A stretch of 64,000 bases of DNA, from the NCBI GenBank assembly GCA_021324445.1, contig JAJPJC010000122.1, positions 1-64,000 on the forward strand, given 5' to 3'. The first letter of the stretch is position 1. Each line of letters opens with the position of its first letter. The notes beneath the pieces were generated by a model. The model made no database searches. It was not told the origin of the DNA and saw only the letters and a program-made list of their open reading frames with translations. Position numbers and translations under genes: made by a program. The DNA comes from Isosphaeraceae bacterium. GTDB lineage: Bacteria > Planctomycetota > Planctomycetia > Isosphaerales > Isosphaeraceae. Shown piece by piece: positions 6,213 to 62,029 of the stretch.

Positions 6213-6235
6213 GGGGTCATTCCTCCGGAATTCCA

Positions 6236-6319
6236 GTACGCGGTACACAGTACGTAGTTCGCGGTGAACAGAAGACCGATCTTCCTCTTACGGCGTACTG
6301 TGTCCTGCGGACTCCTTAC
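6236..6319. repeat. GT-heptad inverted-arm element between fadJ and fadA
   Basis: The 84 bp divide exactly into twelve 7-mers. Reading in on the plus strand the left arm units are GTACGCG (6236), GTACACA (6243), GTACGTA (6250), GTTCGCG (6257) and GTGAACA (6264). Reading in on the minus strand from 6319 the right arm units are GTAAGGA, GTCCGCA, GGACACA, GTACGCC and GTAAGAG. The centre is a small perfect hairpin, GAAGA-CCGA-TCTTC (6271-6284). The arms match best when slipped by one heptad (12 of 15 bases for ACACAGTACG and its surroundings). The fadJ stop TAA (6318-6316) is part of the first minus-strand heptad. Confidence 0.8.
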
Positions 6320-8460
6320 TTGGGCCGCGGATAGAACGTCTCGCCGGTCTGCGCCAGTTTGAGCAGGCTCTGGGTCGGCTCGTAGCGTTTGCCGAGCGGC
6401 ACGAATCGCGCCAGCCGATCGACAACGGTGGCAGCTCCGACGGTGTCGCACCAGCGGAGGATTCCGCCGCGGAAGGGTGGGAAGCCGATCCCGAGGATCA
6501 GGCCCATGTCGACATCCCCCGGCTCGCGGACGATCCCTTCCTCCAGGACGCGGGTTGCCTCCAGGAGCATCGGGAAAAAGAGGCGATCGGTGATCTCCGC
6601 CTCGTCCATCGCGCGGTCGCCGGTGCGATGCTTGGCGATGATGGCCGTGACGGCCGGGTTGGGCTCCGGCTTGGCGTGTTTGCCCTTGGAAGTCCAGAAC
6701 CGCAGCGCCGACGCGTGATCCGCGCCGCCGGCCCGGAGCATCTCCTCCAGGATCGGTGAGGTCACGACCCGGTCGGGGTAGGCACCGGCCAGCAGCTTGC
6801 CGGCGTAACAGGCCGTGCCCAGCCCCACCAGGTCGGTGAGGGTGAGCGGGCCCATTGGCATGCCGAACCGCGTCGCCGCCCGATCGATCGCCTCCATCGA
6901 CACCCCTTCCTGCAAGAGCAGGAGGGCCTCGTTCATGTACGGCATCAACACCCGGTTGACCAGGAAGCCGGCGCAGTCCCGGACCACGATCGGCGTCTTG
7001 CGGATCCGCTTGGCCAGCGCCACGATCGTCGCGATGGTCTCATCGCTGGTCTTCTCACCCCGGATGACCTCGACCAGCTCCATGCGATCGACCGGGTTGA
7101 AGAAGTGCATCCCCACGAACCGATCGGGGTGCGGTGCAGCCTGGGCCAGCTTGGTGATCGAGATCGTCGACGTGTTGCTGGCGAGGATGGCGTCGTCGCG
7201 GAGCACGGTGGCGAGCTTCCGGTAGGCCTCGGTCTTGATCGCCGGATTCTCGGTGACCGCCTCGACGACCACGTCGGATTCGGCGAAGATCGCCTCGGTG
7301 GTGGAGGTGCTGAGCAAGGCGAGCATGTTGGCCAGGTCCTGGGGCGTCGCCCGGCCGATCTTGATCCGGCTCATGACGACATCGGAGGCGCGCTGGAGGC
7401 CATCCTTGATCCGGGCATCGTCCACGTCGACCATGGCCGTGCGGATGCCCGAGCGCGCATGGGCCGCGGCGATGCCGGCGCCCATCAGCCCCGCCCCGAG
7501 CACGCCGACCCGATTGACGGCCCGCGGCGTCACGTGCGGGTCGCTCACGCCCGGGTCGCGCGCCAGCCGATTCTTCATGAAGAAGATGGCGATCAGGTTG
7601 CCCAGGATCGGCGAGCCGAACAGCTCGCCCACGGCTCTTTGCTCGGCTTTCAGGCCCTCCTCCAGGGGCAGGTTGCAACCCTCCCGGATCGCCTTCAGCG
7701 CGGTCAGGGGCGCCGGGTACTGCCCCTTGGTTTTGGACTTGATCAGCCCTTCGGCGACCGCGAAGGCGAACATCAGCTCATCCTGGTCCAGCCCGAGCGG
7801 TTGTGCGAGCTGCTGCCGCCGCTCTTTCCACTCGCCACTCTGCTGGAGGTATTCGATCCGACGGGTTCCTTCCTCGACCAGGCGGTCCGCGGGGACGGCG
7901 TCGAACGCCAGACCCAGGGCAACCGCCTTGTCGGCCGAGACGGATTCACCCGTGGTGATCATCTCGATGGCCGGATTCAGGCCGATCAACCGGGGGAGAC
8001 GCTGCGTCCCGCCCCAGCCGGGAATCAGGCCGATCTTGACCTCCGGAAGGCCGACCTGCGTCTGCGGCGTCGCCGCGACCAGGCGGTCGTCCATCGACAG
8101 CGCCAGCTCGGTCCCACCGCCCAGGCAGTTGCCGTCGATCAAGGCCACGGTCGGGAACGGCAGCCGGCTGAGCCGGCTGAACAGGGCGTGGCCGGCGCTG
8201 AGAGCCCCGACCGCCTGCTCTTTCGTGATGGAGGACAGGGCCGCCAGATCGTTGAGATCGGCCCCCGCGATGAACTGTCCTGGTTTGCTGCTGCGCAAGA
8301 GCAGCCCGCGCAGGTCGCTCCGCTGCTCCAGTTGACCGACCAGCCCGGCGAGCTCCCGGAGCACGCCCTGCGACAGCGTGTTCACCTTCTTCTCCGGCAC
8401 GTCGAAGGTGACCAGCGCGATCTTGCCATCGAGCTCGTCCAGTTGGAATGCGTTGGGCAT
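6316..8460 (-). CDS. fadJ: FadJ/FadB-type enoyl-CoA hydratase / 3-hydroxyacyl-CoA dehydrogenase
   Basis: A 714-residue fusion enzyme of the usual length. Residues 1 to about 190 are an enoyl-CoA hydratase (crotonase) domain with the oxyanion region GQFIAGADLNDL and both catalytic glutamates, in GGGTELALSMDDR and GLPEVKIGLIPGWGGTQRLP. A linker leads to a Rossmann domain with VGVLGAGLMGAGIA near residue 320, the dehydrogenase motif MHFFNPVDRMELVEVI with the catalytic His, and two C-terminal dehydrogenase domains. It hydrates trans-2-enoyl-CoA and oxidises L-3-hydroxyacyl-CoA with NAD in the cytoplasm. AGGAGGAGCC precedes the ATG. It is flanked on both sides by inverted-arm elements, yet remains in one strand-consistent operon with acyl-CoA dehydrogenase and thiolase. 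Confidence 0.94.
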   Translation of the reverse strand: MPNAFQLDELDGKIALVTFDVPEKKVNTLSQGVLRELAGLVGQLEQRSDLRGLLLRSSKPGQFIAGADLNDLAALSSITKEQAVGALSAGHALFSRLSRLPFPTVALIDGNCLGGGTELALSMDDRLVAATPQTQVGLPEVKIGLIPGWGGTQRLPRLIGLNPAIEMITTGESVSADKAVALGLAFDAVPADRLVEEGTRRIEYLQQSGEWKERRQQLAQPLGLDQDELMFAFAVAEGLIKSKTKGQYPAPLTALKAIREGCNLPLEEGLKAEQRAVGELFGSPILGNLIAIFFMKNRLARDPGVSDPHVTPRAVNRVGVLGAGLMGAGIAAAHARSGIRTAMVDVDDARIKDGLQRASDVVMSRIKIGRATPQDLANMLALLSTSTTEAIFAESDVVVEAVTENPAIKTEAYRKLATVLRDDAILASNTSTISITKLAQAAPHPDRFVGMHFFNPVDRMELVEVIRGEKTSDETIATIVALAKRIRKTPIVVRDCAGFLVNRVLMPYMNEALLLLQEGVSMEAIDRAATRFGMPMGPLTLTDLVGLGTACYAGKLLAGAYPDRVVTSPILEEMLRAGGADHASALRFWTSKGKHAKPEPNPAVTAIIAKHRTGDRAMDEAEITDRLFFPMLLEATRVLEEGIVREPGDVDMGLILGIGFPPFRGGILRWCDTVGAATVVDRLARFVPLGKRYEPTQSLLKLAQTGETFYPRPK

Positions 8461-8470
8461 GGCTCCTCCT

Positions 8471-8675
8471 GTAGGTCAGGCGTTCCAGCCTGACACGATT
8501 CCGAGTTGAATGGAGATTCACCGCAGAGACCGCGGAGATCACGGAGAGGAAGGCAGCGACAGACGACCAAGAATGGTTGATCGTTCTCGGTCTGGATGTC
8601 TGCGATCTCCGCGGTCTCCGCGGTGAAATCTTCAGGCGGATTCAGCCTGATCTCAGGCTGAAAGCCTGACCTCCG
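8471..8675. repeat. Composite inverted-arm element between acyl-CoA dehydrogenase and fadJ
   Basis: Nearly the whole gap is one long imperfect palindrome. The outer arms are CAGGCG-TTCC-AGCCTG (8475-8494) and CAGGCTGAAAGCCTG (within 8653-8669), with a third copy at 8632-8650. The inner arms are 9-bp repeats of the type ACCGCGGAG, left at 8518-8549 and right at 8604-8626; 22 of 23 bases of the right arm match the left. Even the loop pairs: GACCAAGAA near 8559 against TTCTCGGTC near 8584. It begins next to the fadJ ribosome-binding site and ends at the acyl-CoA dehydrogenase stop. No open frame is supported inside. Confidence 0.85.
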
Positions 8676-10583
8676 TCAGGGCTGATAGGGCATCAGGATC
8701 TCCTCGGGCTGGACGCCGGCAATCGCCTCGAAGCCGCCTTCGGCGATGGTCGCGCCGAGCTTGGTGACGGCCCGGAAGTAGCCGTCGGTGGGCTGCTGGC
8801 CAGTGAGGCGGCGGGTGAGGTCCTGGCAGAGGATGTCGGCCGCGCTCTGGACGACCTCACTCGACTGCCGGCCGGCCCACAGGCTGGTCGCCAGGATCAC
8901 AACGAGGTCCTGGATCCGCTGCGAGAGCTCGGCGATGCGGCACTGGCGATCGGGCAGGCGGAGCTGATGCTTGATCATGACATCGCTGATCGTCAACCGG
9001 CTGCGCTGGAGGCCCGCCGCGGCGAACCGGGCGTGGGCCGCCAGGCGCGGTGGCAGCGGCGGTAACGCGGGGCGGTGACGCGGGCGGATGGCTGCGCCCA
9101 ACCACCACTTGGCGTACGGCACCAGCTCGTGGCGCAGCGCCCAGGCATGTGCCGGGTTGAGCGGATTGGGCCGGTGGAGGCCGGCCGCGTGGATCGCCCG
9201 GCCGATCGGCTCGAAATAGGTCTTGCCGTGCTCCTTGATCAGCGACTTCAAGAACGCCATGCCCAGCATCTCGCCCTCGCCCTCGTAGATGCACGGCGCC
9301 AGGTACTCATGGACATTCTCACCGAAGAGGTGCCCGCGGAGGAACGCCCGACCGCCGTGGGTCTTCATGAACAGCTCGATGGCCGCCTCCTTCTGGGCCT
9401 CGCTGCCGAAGATCTTGGCGATGATGCACTCCATCTCGCCGCGGAACCCCTGATCCAGCAGCCAGGAGCACCAGGCAACCAGGGCGTCGCAACCGGTCAC
9501 CAGCGCGGCCAGCCGGCCGATCCGCCGCTGGACCAGCTCCCGCGCGACAATCGCCGCGCCATAGGTCCGGCGGAAGTGAGCCCAGGGGAGCATGTTGGCC
9601 AGCATCACCCGCATGGCGCCGGCGGCGGTCGCGCACAGGGAGACCCGGCCCAGGTTCAAACCGTGGTACGCGATCGTCAGGCCGTCTCCCTGCGCGGGGC
9701 GGAGCAGGTTGGCGCGGGGCACGCGGAAATCGCGGAACCTCAGGCCATGGTTGTGCAGATGCCGCAAGGCCAGCAGCCCGTAGTGGACCATCTGGAAGTG
9801 TTCGTCCTCGTGGTCGGGCAAGTCGACGATCAACACGGCCGGTCGATTCTCGATCAGGCACACCAGGCCGATCGTGCGACCGGGGACGGCATTGGTGATG
9901 AACAGCTTCTCGCCGTTGACGACGTAATGGTCGCCGTCGAGCTCGGCCCGTGTCCGCAAGGCGGTCAGGTCCGAGCCGGCGCACGGCTCGGTCAGGGCGA
10001 AGGCCGAGAGCCGCCGGCCGCTGGCCAGCAACGGGAGATACTCGGCTTTCTGCTCCGCAGTTCCGAAGGTCCGCAACGGATCCACGGCGCCGATGCACCC
10101 ATGGACCGAGGCCAGCCCGGCCAGGTTCGGCTCGATCGTGGACATCTGGGTGAGGAAGCGAGAAAACGACGCGAACGAGGCGCCTCGGCCGCCGTACTGC
10201 GGATCGATGAGCAGCCCCCAGTATCCGGCCGCGGCCAGGTCCCCCAGCACGGCCTCGGTCACCTTGCCATCGGGCCCGAAGAGGGTGCCGGCGTCGCGGT
10301 GTCGCCGCGCGACATCCAGCGACTCACGCATCGTCCGGTCCACCTCGGCCGAAGGCCGCGGCGGCTCGGGCGCGAACAGGTCGGTCGGGAACTGATCGTC
10401 CCAGACCGCGCGATGGATCGGACTCTTGACCGTCTGGTACCGCGCGGCGAAGAGGGCTTCCACCTGGTCGTCGGCGCGGTCGAGCGTGCCGGTCGTCCGC
10501 GCCTCTTCCTCGCTCTTGCCGCTGAGCTTCAGCGCGGTCTCGACGAACGTCTGGGTCTCGGGCTCCCGCACTTGGGTATCCAT
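8676..10583 (-). CDS. Acyl-CoA dehydrogenase
   Basis: A 635-residue flavoprotein that makes the trans-2 double bond in acyl-CoA, the first step of beta-oxidation. The N-terminal helical and beta domains include LTEPCAGSDLTALRT and YVVNGEKLFITNAVPGRTIG, the FAD/substrate loops of the family. The C-terminal helical domain holds THGGRAFLRG and IYEGEGEMLGMAFLK, equivalent to the IYEG motif of short-chain members. About 150 further residues follow, so it resembles VLCAD or ACAD9 in size. I start at the ATG at 10583 (MDTQVREPE); a frame open to 10976 adds only arginine-rich sequence. Electrons would pass to an electron-transfer flavoprotein, which is not in this window. Confidence 0.93.
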   Translation of the reverse strand: MDTQVREPETQTFVETALKLSGKSEEEARTTGTLDRADDQVEALFAARYQTVKSPIHRAVWDDQFPTDLFAPEPPRPSAEVDRTMRESLDVARRHRDAGTLFGPDGKVTEAVLGDLAAAGYWGLLIDPQYGGRGASFASFSRFLTQMSTIEPNLAGLASVHGCIGAVDPLRTFGTAEQKAEYLPLLASGRRLSAFALTEPCAGSDLTALRTRAELDGDHYVVNGEKLFITNAVPGRTIGLVCLIENRPAVLIVDLPDHEDEHFQMVHYGLLALRHLHNHGLRFRDFRVPRANLLRPAQGDGLTIAYHGLNLGRVSLCATAAGAMRVMLANMLPWAHFRRTYGAAIVARELVQRRIGRLAALVTGCDALVAWCSWLLDQGFRGEMECIIAKIFGSEAQKEAAIELFMKTHGGRAFLRGHLFGENVHEYLAPCIYEGEGEMLGMAFLKSLIKEHGKTYFEPIGRAIHAAGLHRPNPLNPAHAWALRHELVPYAKWWLGAAIRPRHRPALPPLPPRLAAHARFAAAGLQRSRLTISDVMIKHQLRLPDRQCRIAELSQRIQDLVVILATSLWAGRQSSEVVQSAADILCQDLTRRLTGQQPTDGYFRAVTKLGATIAEGGFEAIAGVQPEEILMPYQP

Positions 10584-10831
10584 CGTCCAACCTCGGCGCT
10601 GCGCCCACGCAGCGAATGAAGAGGTCTTGGGAAGAGTCCGGCAAGGTGGCACCCGACCGATTCGATTCGATCGGCAGCCTGGCCCTCCGGGACTCGGAAC
10701 GCGGTGACGCCCACAGGCCAGGCGCTCCGCCTCGGCTCCGCTCCACCAACTGGGGCGCACGTCCCGGGCCCTATTATGCGCCAAGCACGCCCGGACGGGA
10801 ACGGGCCTCTTGGTCCTTGGTCCTGGGACGA

Positions 10832-12259
10832 CTACGGACCGAGGACCGCGGGGGAGTCTTCCCCGATCGGGGCGCCGGCCTCCACGGGCGTGGAGTCTTC
10901 CACCATCGGGGCGTCGGCCTCCTCGGGCGAGCCGACCCGCACACGCGTCGACTCGACGTCCTGCTCCAGCAGCCAATCCTCCAGGATCAGGTGATTGACA
11001 AAGGGAGCGCGGAACAGCACCGCATTGAGCGGGAGCTTGCGGGCCAGCCAGTGGTTGCGGCTGATGCTCGGCAGCACCCGGCGTCCCAGGCGGTCGAGGT
11101 GCCGGCTCTTGAGCTGCCTCATGATCTTGCCGCTGAGCCGGTCAAACGCCGTCGGGATCAGCCGCGGCTCGGGCCCGACGTGGATCACCAGCTCGACCCC
11201 CGACGCCAGTGTGTGCTCAATCACATCCCAGAGCCGCTGGGGATGATCGGTCCAATCCCTGAGGATCTCCCGGCTGTTCCACTCGTCGTAGTTGGCCTCA
11301 CCGGTGGTGCAGGAGATCACGTCCGGTTTCGGCTTACTGTGACCTCCGCCGGTGTGATAGAGCGCCACGGCGGCGCGGTTGGGAACGCTCCGTTCCCAGA
11401 CCAGGGGCGTATGCAGGGGCGGCCAATGATTGGCCCTCCGCCGGAGGGTCACCGCCGCCGGCAGGTATTGCCGCATCTCCGTCTCCAGCAGGTCGAGCGT
11501 GTCGCCCTGGCCCAGGAGCAACACCTGGTAAGGAGACAGATAGGTCGAGGGCCCGATCAGCCCATGGCCCCGGCTGCTGATCAGGGCGCAGAGCTTTTGC
11601 ACCTGCTCGGCCTCGAGCACGCCGCTGGGGCTGGAGAGGATCCCCAGGGTGGTATCGGCGGCCAGGTCGGCGCAATCGTGGGCCAGCGCCAGGGGGATCG
11701 GCAGGAGCTGCTCCATCTCGAAGACCCCGCCCAGCACCAGGGCCGACAGCTCGCCGATACTGTGGCCAAAGCTCAACGGCGCGTCGTGGATCGGCACCTC
11801 GAAGACCTGCTCGAGCAACTGGATCTGGGCCAGCTCCATGGCCACGATGGTGGCCGTATCCTCGACGAAGGTCCCGAGCGTGGAGGGCGCACGCGCCAGC
11901 ATCCGGGCCGTCAAGTCGACCGGCGCCTTGAGGACCTCGCCGCAGACCACCGACGCCCGGTCCAGGAAGGACCGGACGACCGGCCCGAAGACCCGATGCT
12001 CCAGCAGCTCCGGTCCCCGGCCGAGGTTGGTCAGGTCGTAGCCCCGGAACGCCAAGGCGGTGGTGTGGATCTGTGTCTTGAGATCATCACGTGTCACCGG
12101 ATGTTGTCCGGGCGCGACCGCCCGCAACGCAGCGGGCTCTCCGGTGCCCTCGGCGGCGATGCGTTCCGGCATGGGTACCGGGGACGTACGATGACTGGTC
12201 AGCCAGCCGGTCCACGTCCGCCAGCGCTGATCGCGAGCTCTCGATTTCGTATTTCGCAT
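10832..12259 (-). CDS. Acyltransferase with FabD-type GHSxGE motif
   Basis: A 475-residue protein with the malonyl-CoA/acyl-ACP transacylase signature FGHSIGELSALVLGG around residue 170, where the Ser would be the acyl-carrying nucleophile. Downstream VELVIHVGPEPRLIP resembles the transacylase region with the catalytic His. The last 35 residues are a repetitive acidic tail (EEADAPMVEDSTP, then EAGAPIGEDSP). The start is uncertain: the ATG at 12259 has no strong ribosome-binding site, and a GTG at 12097 (VTRDDLKTQIH) begins where conserved-looking sequence starts. It is the first gene of the beta-oxidation operon, which is odd because this fold normally serves fatty-acid or polyketide synthesis. 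The acyl substrate cannot be predicted. Confidence 0.75.
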   Translation of the reverse strand: MRNTKSRARDQRWRTWTGWLTSHRTSPVPMPERIAAEGTGEPAALRAVAPGQHPVTRDDLKTQIHTTALAFRGYDLTNLGRGPELLEHRVFGPVVRSFLDRASVVCGEVLKAPVDLTARMLARAPSTLGTFVEDTATIVAMELAQIQLLEQVFEVPIHDAPLSFGHSIGELSALVLGGVFEMEQLLPIPLALAHDCADLAADTTLGILSSPSGVLEAEQVQKLCALISSRGHGLIGPSTYLSPYQVLLLGQGDTLDLLETEMRQYLPAAVTLRRRANHWPPLHTPLVWERSVPNRAAVALYHTGGGHSKPKPDVISCTTGEANYDEWNSREILRDWTDHPQRLWDVIEHTLASGVELVIHVGPEPRLIPTAFDRLSGKIMRQLKSRHLDRLGRRVLPSISRNHWLARKLPLNAVLFRAPFVNHLILEDWLLEQDVESTRVRVGSPEEADAPMVEDSTPVEAGAPIGEDSPAVLGP

Positions 12260-20195: not shown

Positions 20196-21841
20196 ATCCG
20201 GCCCTCTTCAAACTCCTCTGGCTGTCGACCAAGGCCGCGTTCCGCAGGGCGCTCCGCGGCGTCCGGACCGTGCGCGGAGCGCTCTTGGTCCTGTTCACGC
20301 TGGGATTCCTGGCCCTGATGCTGGTCCCCCAGGTCATCACGGCGATCACCATGAGCGGGCGGCCAGAGATGGCACGGATCGCCGAGACCTCGGAGCTCTT
20401 CGCCCCGTTCGGGCTCCTGCTGATCGCCCTGCTGCTGGTCTTCACGGCGGCCGGTGAGCGGGCGATCTACTTCACGCCCGCCGAGGTCGATCTCTTGTTC
20501 TCCGCGCCGTTCGCGCGGCGCGAGCTGTTGCTCTACAAGCTGGAGAAGGGGACCCTGGGCCTGGTCGCCACGTCGTTGTTCATGTCGCTGATGATGCTGA
20601 ACAACTTCCGATCGTGGCTGTCCGGGTTCGTGGGCATCCTCTTATCGCTGGCGATGTTGCGGCTCCTGGCCATGACGACGGCGATGGCCGGCCAGATCGT
20701 GGCCGAATCGCTGTACAACCGGGCGCGCCGGCTGTTGCTGGGGGTGGTGCTCCTCCTGCTGCTGATGGGTCTGGCGCAGGTCGCCCGCCGGGTGCAGGGC
20801 GGTGGGATCGCCGAGCTGGTCGCCAGCGTGCGCGACTCGGGCACCTTGCAGGTGCTGGTGGCTCCGTTTCGGGTCTTCACGCGGACCATCTTCGCCGGGG
20901 CCTGGTTCCCCGACCTGGCCGGCTGGGCGGCCGCATCCCTGGCGATCAACCTGGGCCTGCTCACCGTCATTTTGAAGATGGATGCCAACTACCTCGAGTC
21001 GGCCGCGGCGATCAGCCAGCGGCTCTACGAACAACTCCGCCGCATCAAGCAAGGCGGCGGTCTGGCCATGCCGGCCAGCTCGCGCGGTCTCCGCATCCAC
21101 CTTCCGCACCCTCCCTGGTTGGGCGGTGCCGGTCCGGTGGCCTGGCGGCAACTGCTCCTGGCGATCCGCACATCCCGGCACGTTTTCTTCGCCACGATGG
21201 GGCTGGCCGTCGTATTCTTCACGGTCCTTGTGGCCGCCGATCCAGGTCCGGATTCGGCCGGACTGGCCTCCGGGATGGGGATCGGCATGACGGCCTACTT
21301 GACGTTCCTCTTCGCGATGCAGCTCCCCTGGGCGTTCCGCGGCGACCTCGATCACATGGACGTCCTCAAGACGCTTCCCCTGCACCCGATGGTCCTGGCC
21401 GTGGGCGAACTGGCCGGTGGCGTGCTGCTCCTGACGCTGATCCAGGTCGTCATCCTGGCTCTGTTCACCGCCGCGGCGCCGGCATCGATTCCGGCGATGC
21501 TCGCCGCCGCGGCCTTTGCCCTCCCGTTCAACGGGATGATCCTCGGTCTGAACAACCTCCTCTTCTTGATCTATCCCGTGCGGCTGATGACGGGCACGGC
21601 CTTCGACTTCCAGACTTTCGGCCGGTCACTCCTCTTCTTCTCCCTCCTGTTCCTGCTCCTGATCCCCTTGTTCGGCATCCCCGCCGGAATCGGCGGTCTT
21701 GCCTGCTTGCTCATCGGTTTCTCCTGGCCGGTCTTCGCGCTGACGGCGTGGCTGGTACTCGTGGCGGAGCTCTTGCCGGTGGTCATCCTGGTCGCCTGGG
21801 CGTTCCAGCGGTTCGACCCGAGTACGCAGATGCCCGCTTAG
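20192..21841 (+). CDS. ABC exporter permease
   Basis: A 549-residue polytopic membrane protein. Hydrophobic segments are clear at GALLVLFTLGFLALMLVPQVI, split here as GALLVLFTLGF and LALMLVPQVI, then LLLIALLLVFTAAG, a cluster around residues 130-200 (LLLGVVLLLLLMGLAQV), and six to eight more in the C-terminal half, ending LVLVAELLPVVILVAWAF. The segment YFTPAEVDLLFSAPFARRELLLYK is characteristic of putative ABC exporter permeases. With the coupled ATPase it should form an exporter; substrate unknown. The last base of the stop codon is the first base of the repeat element that follows. Confidence 0.85.
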   Translation: MNPALFKLLWLSTKAAFRRALRGVRTVRGALLVLFTLGFLALMLVPQVITAITMSGRPEMARIAETSELFAPFGLLLIALLLVFTAAGERAIYFTPAEVDLLFSAPFARRELLLYKLEKGTLGLVATSLFMSLMMLNNFRSWLSGFVGILLSLAMLRLLAMTTAMAGQIVAESLYNRARRLLLGVVLLLLLMGLAQVARRVQGGGIAELVASVRDSGTLQVLVAPFRVFTRTIFAGAWFPDLAGWAAASLAINLGLLTVILKMDANYLESAAAISQRLYEQLRRIKQGGGLAMPASSRGLRIHLPHPPWLGGAGPVAWRQLLLAIRTSRHVFFATMGLAVVFFTVLVAADPGPDSAGLASGMGIGMTAYLTFLFAMQLPWAFRGDLDHMDVLKTLPLHPMVLAVGELAGGVLLLTLIQVVILALFTAAAPASIPAMLAAAAFALPFNGMILGLNNLLFLIYPVRLMTGTAFDFQTFGRSLLFFSLLFLLLIPLFGIPAGIGGLACLLIGFSWPVFALTAWLVLVAELLPVVILVAWAFQRFDPSTQMPA

Positions 21842-21990
21842 TCCTTTTGTCCGTGGTCCGTTGGAGGAGCTCCCGCTCCGGTGCGCCGTCATCGCCCCTC
21901 TTCGAGTGCCTCAAGACTCCCGGACCAGGCTCGTCAGCCCGCCAAGCGAACCACGGACCACGGACCACGGACCAAAGGCCAAAGAACCAA
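21841..21990. repeat. GT-heptad inverted-arm element after the ABC permease
   Basis: The left arm at 21841-21865 has GTCCTTTT followed by GTCCGTG and GTCCGTT. The right arm at about 21946-21990, read on the minus strand, holds three GTCCGTG units plus the variants GTTCGCT and GCCTTTG. The arms are inverted copies: TTTGTCCGTGGTCCG on the left matches CGGACCACGGACCAAA on the right with one change. The first G of the left arm is the G of the permease TAG stop. The core between the arms (about 80 bp) has no recognisable gene. Confidence 0.75.
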
Positions 21991-26330: not shown

Positions 26331-26347
26331 TTATCTGAGAAACGTCG

Positions 26348-26406
26348 GTCAGGCTGTCCAGCCTGACAGCCCGACAGGCTGGGAAGGTCAGGCTGGACAG
26401 CCTGAC
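26348..26406. repeat. CAGGCT palindrome pair
   Basis: Two 20-bp palindromes, GTCAGGCTGTCCAGCCTGAC (26348-26367) and GTCAGGCTGGACAGCCTGAC (26387-26406), are perfect reverse complements of each other. The loop GTCC in the first appears as GGAC in the second. A half copy (ACAGGCTGGGAAGGTC) lies between. It follows the terminator and precedes the lysine-rich gene. Confidence 0.85.
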
Positions 26407-26672
26407 CTTCGGGAGGGCGCGGGCCCACGGCCGGTTCGTCCCTGCCACGCCCTCCAACCGATCTCGTCGCTAGGACCGGAGGAATCGACACGTCCATCGA
26501 GCCTGACTCGATTCCATGAGAATTTGACGCAAAATCAAATTTCTTCAAAATCTCTCTTGAAGCTCGCGAAGCATGATGGCATCCTAAGAGACGTCGTTCT
26601 TCTTGCGGAGAGAGACGACAGGTTCATTTCGGTTTTCGGCCATTCGGACCACGTTCACGAGGAGGATTGACC

Positions 26673-38623: not shown

Positions 38624-38692
38624 ACCAAGTAAGTCAGGCTTTAGCCTGACAGGAATCGAAACCTCAGGCTAAAGCCTGAACTACGACTTGGT
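38624..38692. repeat. CAGGCT inverted-arm element
   Basis: A 69-bp hairpin. Each arm holds a palindrome: GTCAGGCTTTAGCCTGAC (38633-38650) and TCAGGCTAAAGCCTGA (38664-38679). The loop TTTA of the left becomes TAAA on the right. The pairing continues outward to ACCAAGT (38624-38630) and ACTTGGT (38686-38692). It lies between the sigma gene and the remnant frame at 38664-38819, whose stop codon (38666-38664) is inside the right palindrome. Confidence 0.85.
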
Positions 38693-59819: not shown

Positions 59820-60219
59820 CGGCCCGGTCCTCCCGACCTCGTAAGAAGGCGACGATCTCCGCCAGGGCTGTCCCGGGCCCGAAGACCCGGGCCACGCCGC
59901 GCTCGAGCAGCTTCGGGATGTCCTCACGGGGGATCGTTCCCCCAACGATCACGCCGACATGCCCCAGGCCCGCCCGCTCCAGTTGCTCCAGGACTCGCGG
60001 GACCAGGGTCATGTGCGCGCCGCTCAGCAGGCTCAGGCCGAGCCAGTCGGCGTCCTCGTCGGCGACGGCGCGGACGACCGCCTCCGGCGTCTGCCAGAGC
60101 CCGGCATAGATGACGTGGAAGCCGGCATCGCGCAGCGCCCGCGCCACCACCTTGATGCCCCGATCGTGACCATCGAGGCCCACCTTGGCCAGGACAATGC
60201 GCACCTTGTTATTTGTCAT
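59812..60219 (-). CDS. icmB: Cobalamin-binding small subunit of an acyl-CoA mutase
   Basis: A 135-residue B12-binding protein. The cofactor ligand motif is LDGHDRG, with Asp16, His18 and Gly21 (DxHxxG). SLLSGAHMTLVP and VGGTIPREDIPKL complete the cobalamin pocket. Its size equals that of IcmB of Streptomyces, and the large subunit next to it lacks a B12 domain. The start codon and the first codons (ATGACAAATAACAAG) are made of repeat heptads, so residues 2-5 (TNNK) are repeat-encoded. The conserved part begins at VRIVLAKVGLDGHD. Confidence 0.9.
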   Translation of the reverse strand: MTNNKVRIVLAKVGLDGHDRGIKVVARALRDAGFHVIYAGLWQTPEAVVRAVADEDADWLGLSLLSGAHMTLVPRVLEQLERAGLGHVGVIVGGTIPREDIPKLLERGVARVFGPGTALAEIVAFLRGREDRADA

Positions 60220-60379
60220 TTGTTATTTGTTACTTGTTACTGGACCTATAGCGGGACTTGGTTGACGGCAGAGCCTGCTCGGTCGCATCAGTCATGATCC
60301 ATCTCGTTAACCCGTTGCGAGAAGGTTGTGTGCCAGCGGCATCCGCCAGGTAGCCGATTGTCGAACGAATGACAAATAA

Positions 60380-60394
<15 letters not shown>
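60208..60394. repeat. GT-heptad inverted-arm element between icmA and icmB
   Basis: The left arm on the plus strand has GTTATTT (60208), GTCATTT (60215), GTTATTT (60222), GTTACTT (60229) and GTTACTG (60236). The right arm on the minus strand has GTTATTA (60394), GTTATTA (60387), GTTATTT (60380) and GTCATTC (60373). A core of about 120 bp separates them. The left arm covers the icmB start codon and its next four codons. The right arm supplies the last codons of icmA and its TAG stop (60382-60380). Confidence 0.85.

Positions 60395-62029
<1,635 letters not shown>

Follow-up and report, generated by a model that had tools for sequence, protein, structure and literature searches.

What fills the gap between the acyl-CoA dehydrogenase (ACAD) gene and fadJ in this planctomycete genome, and does it act on the message of its neighbours? 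The gap lies in the 64,000-nt stretch of DNA analysed here (the window), where an ACAD reading frame (8676-10976, with the real start somewhere within the frame), a gene for a fadJ-type enoyl-CoA hydratase/3-hydroxyacyl-CoA dehydrogenase (6316-8460) and a thiolase gene follow one another in that order, all on the minus strand. From the ACAD stop codon (8678-8676) to the fadJ ATG (8460-8458) there is little besides a composite palindrome, which occupies the whole 205-bp gap at 8471-8675. An earlier note on this DNA had described CAGGCT outer arms around inner arms of 9-nt units, starting at the fadJ ribosome-binding site, and had proposed that folding could change fadJ translation or stabilise the upstream message. 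The description was accurate in its sequence and coordinates. Both pairs of arms were located, and the predicted Shine-Dalgarno sequence of fadJ, AGGAGGAG (8463-8470, minus strand), directly abuts the element. The neighbouring fadJ-thiolase gap has a 20-nt inverted repeat of its own (6235-6313), at and just past the start of the thiolase gene.

The outer arms (8473-8485 and 8660-8672) are 13 nt long and 92% complementary, and pair into one hairpin. The inner arms (8517-8545 and 8599-8627) are 29 nt long, 90% complementary and built of ACCGCRGAG-type units; the span from 8517 to 8627 was the top inverted repeat of up to 250 bp in the 64-kb window. Nearly the whole gap is predicted to fold back on itself on either strand, as had been claimed, and the fold is far beyond chance. 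The plus-strand RNA gave -115.1 kcal/mol compared to -71.6 ± 4.5 for shuffled sequences (z -9.7), none of the 200 shuffles being as stable, and the transcribed minus strand gave -122 (z -9.1).

Read along the plus strand, the gap opens with a REP made of a GTAG tag and the hairpin GTCAGGCGTTCCAGCCTGAC (8471-8494), followed by a spacer that starts ACGATTCCGAGT (8495-8516). The left arm of the inner element (8517-8545) consists of TTC and the units ACCGCAGAG, ACCGCGGAG and ATCACGGA. A partly self-pairing centre (8546-8598) separates it from the inverted right arm (8599-8627), which reads ACCGCGGAG, ACCGCGGAG and ATCGCAGA on the minus strand. Beyond this lie two further features in minus orientation, a degenerate REP hairpin without a tag, TCAGGCGGATTCAGCCTGA (8632-8650), and a second, inverted REP with a hairpin and a GGAG tag (8653-8674; GGAGGTCAGGCTTTCAGCCTGA on the minus strand). 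The outer part thus has one REP-like hairpin on its left side but a pair of them on its right (8632-8650 and 8653-8669).

REP hairpins tagged GTAG or GGAG make up the outer CAGGCT arms. REPINs are recognized by a tag, a hairpin, an inverted doublet, a high copy number and linkage to a RAYT gene (PMC3116915, Bertels & Rainey 2011; PMC3733652), and GTAG repeats from Planctomycetes have already been reported (PMC3116915; PMC3733652). All of these features were found here, with the GTAG-type tag at the foot of the hairpin. The pattern GTAGGTCAGGCTN(0-6)AGCCTGAC matched 238 exact REPs in the 10.8-Mb genome and the reversed control pattern matched none; many of the 238 stand as inverted neighbours, plus then minus. 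Among the eight Y1_Tnp (RAYT-type) loci of the genome, two (L137 and L138) have intact frames with the HxH motif and carry REPs of the window type on both sides. One bare REPIN of the same type, L304, has the spacer AGGATTCCACGT, which resembles the left spacer in the window; the inner element therefore sits in the spacer of a REPIN. Two more bare REPINs were seen within the window itself, one of the CAGGC family at 26347-26407 (GGTCAGGCTGTCCAGCCTGAC facing its perfect inverse across 19 nt) and one at 38629-38684 (GTAAGTCAGGCTTTAGCCTGA / TCAGGCTAAAGCCTGAACTAC).

The inner element is a second interspersed repeat. BLAST recovered 108 pieces of the inner palindrome from the genome, and its arm TCACCGCRGAGAYCGCRGAG occurs in 79 exact copies there, in 4 copies in one other genome of the family (G010) and in none of the remaining 43, a lineage-specific expansion. 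The same type of palindrome is nested in at least two further outer contexts, both present in multiple copies. The first has the flanks AAGCTTCC...GGATCC / AACGGG...GACGA (L003-L005 and L007-L010) and the second GGGCCTGACCGCAG... / ...GGTGGTCCAA, with most of its arm pairs covering 139-142 nt. A search of the first context for a site empty of the inner palindrome found none, both flanks always accompanying it, and no direct target-site duplication was visible at the junctions of the inner element in the window or in the listed copies. Comparison with relatives revealed neither a close empty site nor a recent jump, the source genus having one species in the collection and its nearest relatives being only ~76% identical in fadJ. 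Inverted arms of short units also occur elsewhere in the window, at 60207-60395 (A+T-rich units, TGTTATTTGTCATTTGTTATTTGTTACTTGTT), possibly another family of tandem-unit palindromes, and at 21837-21984 (CTTAGTCCTTTTGTCCGTGGTCCGT / ACGGACCACGGACCAAAGGCCAAAG), again with short repeated units.

A link to a gene came from the GxxExxY family (TIGR04256), of which the source genome has three members (L139, L140 and L141). The gene at L139 sits between several inverted TTCACCGCRGAGACCGC arms and that at L140 between AACCACGAAATACACGAAATACACGAAA and its exact inverse, while the third has GCGGATGAACGCGGATGGACGCGGAT downstream. An identical stretch of 26 nt is common to L139 and the window element, the median for GxxExxY loci being 10. 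Because a GxxExxY gene of the source genome lies within these same arms, the inner element can most likely be counted as a non-autonomous relative of an element that carries GxxExxY. At L139 (1114-2107) the arms are multiplied around the gene (six copies forward, four inverted), which would fit amplification of the arm itself.

The association extends well beyond this genome. With 450 nt searched on each side of the gene, inverted arms with a score of at least 16 flanked GxxExxY genes at 52 of 72 loci from four phyla (25 of 32 in the source family and 27 of 40 outside it), a count taken over best-scoring hits, not a random sample, in which loci within one genus are not independent. The cut-off was set after a first look; the controls fall far below it, with 0 of 900 random positions (0/600 and 0/300) and 2 of 128 positions at the same loci shifted by 1 kb. 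Of the loci outside the family, one belongs to another planctomycete (Pan216); the rest were drawn from Calditrichota and Chlamydiota genomes and from the phylum to which the Desulfobulbaceae genome G059 belongs. Most of the flanking arms are two or three tandem units of 9-11 nt, of the types CACAGAG, CGCAGAG, CGCGGAG, CACGGAT, CACGAAT and CGCCAAG, and all of the phyla sampled have palindromes of such units (CACAGAG, CACGAAT, CGCAGAG-like) around GxxExxY genes. A second arm type, TTTCACGCAGAGACGCRGAG, was present in 6 of 45 family genomes, namely G026 and all five of one genus, the other 39 lacking it; it flanks GxxExxY genes at L145, L150, L156 and L159, whose four genomes are among those six. 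GxxExxY genes as such were found in 29 of the 45 genomes of the source family and in 42 of 118 genomes of another phylum. The link between inverted arms and GxxExxY genes is apparently new. No earlier report of it was found in the open-access literature, where two papers each print the name GxxExxY a single time, where no description of its genomic setting was found, and where searches on the arm sequences, on interspersed palindromes of Planctomycetes, on foldback elements and on PF13366/TIGR04256 returned nothing relevant.

GxxExxY proteins belong to PF13366 (PDDEXK_3) in the PD-(D/E)XK superfamily, whose members are endonuclease-type enzymes, and have the invariant residues D68, E78 and K80 in the pattern D-X9-E-X-K. 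A structure model of high confidence (pLDDT 93) gave weak best PDB matches, among them SSO0001 (best E 0.011), LHK-Exo and lambda exonuclease, all three nucleases. We consider it likely that the gap holds a REPIN into which a gene-less relative of GxxExxY elements has inserted. A GTAG-tagged REP doublet, a type that RAYT transposases mobilise, would have settled between ACAD and fadJ, and an unrelated second palindrome would then have landed in its spacer. This second palindrome would be a gene-less family member, whose arms of about three tandem 9-nt ACCGCRGAG units face their inverse copy. It probably spread by way of hairpin or cruciform DNA, as a substrate of either the GxxExxY nuclease or host repair. 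Since PD-(D/E)XK proteins are endonuclease-type enzymes, one plausible route is that extruded hairpins are cut and then copied during repair. It counts against this reading that neither a direct target-site duplication nor an empty site of the inner element was seen and that the PDB fold matches are weak; besides, the arms around a GxxExxY gene could be its target, or the association could be one of hitch-hiking.

An unlikely alternative, although the strongest of those considered, is that the inner palindromes have no dedicated mover but are products of slippage or fold-back repair at simple repeats, GxxExxY having been recruited since the protein cuts or protects hairpins. The short tandem units, their variable number, the multiplied arms at L139 and the failure to see target-site duplications would all fit this explanation, yet one lineage holds 79 near-identical arms as well as repeated copies of 139-142 nt, which implies that they were copied to new sites. 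Less probable still is mobilisation by RAYT-like tyrosine transposases through long inverted repeats (TIRtrons), with GxxExxY as a passenger or control factor. RAYT genes flanked by terminal inverted repeats and accompanied by repeat families have been described (PMC3733652), and the genome has eight Y1_Tnp hits; a RAYT could act on the inner family too, but the TTCACCGCRGAG arm pair is present around a GxxExxY gene and at none of the eight RAYT-type loci, and we rejected RAYT as the carrier of the inner arms.

Equally doubtful is the proposal that selection maintains the composite palindrome as an mRNA element of the operon, which guards the ACAD message from 3'-5' decay, tunes fadJ translation, or both. 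In its favour, the palindrome occupies a gap between same-strand genes, folds very stably and adjoins the fadJ Shine-Dalgarno sequence; palindromes are found in the ACAD-fadJ gap of several other genera too, and REPs have been discussed as mRNA stabilisers (PMC3733652). Against it stands the same gap in relatives. In tblastn searches with both proteins, almost every genome of the family with the two genes on the contig had ACAD immediately upstream of fadJ, and the gap ranged from 24 to 246 nt. The four nearest relatives form one genus. Two of them (L032 and L033) have a gap of 66-69 nt without the element, and the other two (L034 and L048) have only an outer-type palindrome (GTAGGTCCGGCTTTCCAGCC...GGCTCGAAAGCCTGACCTAC), which could represent independent insertions into the same gap. 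More distantly, the gap measures 24-25 nt in L036 and L042, holds other, unrelated palindromes in L035, L038, L041 and L043, several with GTAGGG...CCTAC-like ends, and holds a different repeat-rich sequence in L047. As the contents vary in this way, the structure is not a conserved fadJ leader, and the gap, repeatedly taken by dispersed palindromes, looks like a recurrent landing site.

The suggested role in fadJ translation was not borne out. The structure is missing or replaced in relatives, all of its parts are dispersed repeats, and the modelled accessibility of the fadJ Shine-Dalgarno sequence and AUG was 0.38 with the element and 0.38 with the element removed, which speaks against occlusion of the ribosome-binding site. 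Syntenic conservation with compensatory changes, the mark of a conserved cis-regulatory RNA, was not seen, the gaps of relatives being without the element or otherwise filled. No Rfam family reached its gathering score with the gap sequence, and the best match (mir-3155, 31 bits against a threshold of 70) was dismissed as chance. What did hold is that both arms lie on one presumed transcript: the genes are on the same strand, and searches of the gap for an intrinsic terminator (a G+C-rich hairpin followed by a T run) and for a promoter-like site found neither. Because the gap is probably transcribed, effects on mRNA are possible, and the element may stabilise the upstream message by analogy with known REP behaviour; such effects of the palindrome are probably incidental. 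The case cautions against taking repeat-filled gaps of this sort for regulatory RNA.

If the gap does hold a REPIN invaded by a gene-less GxxExxY relative, the window offers a clean example of the gene-less form lodged in a REPIN. That GxxExxY genes usually lie inside such palindromes suggests a testable role both for the elements and for a nuclease family without an assigned one. More tentatively, and with a little less than even confidence, we propose that the GxxExxY PD-(D/E)XK proteins define an undescribed class of mobile element found across phyla. Its ends would be palindromes with some three 9-11-nt units in tandem, its miniature forms would be gene-less palindromes like the inner element of the window, and the unit sequence in each lineage would match that of the lineage's own GxxExxY element.

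Among known systems, the GxxExxY family (TIGR04256; PF13366) is close to the inner element in that the L139 protein is a member and lies between the same arms; the window copy differs in being gene-less. The inner element also resembles a MITE in that it is short (~110 bp, or 139-142 bp in another subfamily), non-coding and dispersed, with inverted terminal arms. Unlike a MITE, it has arms of tandem 9-nt units in place of one terminal inverted repeat. No target-site duplication was visible and no cognate transposase is apparent, the gene linked to its arms encoding a predicted PD-(D/E)XK nuclease and no known transposase. The outer arms share with REPINs and RAYT-associated GTAG REPs the tag, the short imperfect hairpin, the inverted doublet, the many copies and the REP-flanked RAYT genes, and depart from them in a spacer that contains an entire second palindrome, a distal tag that is GGAG instead of GTAG and an extra degenerate REP. 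Nesting of REP and non-REP palindromes is known from GTAG-15 of A. variabilis and GTAG-23 of T. roseum (PMC3733652), but there the REP lies inside the other palindrome, whereas in the window the palindrome lies inside the REP doublet.
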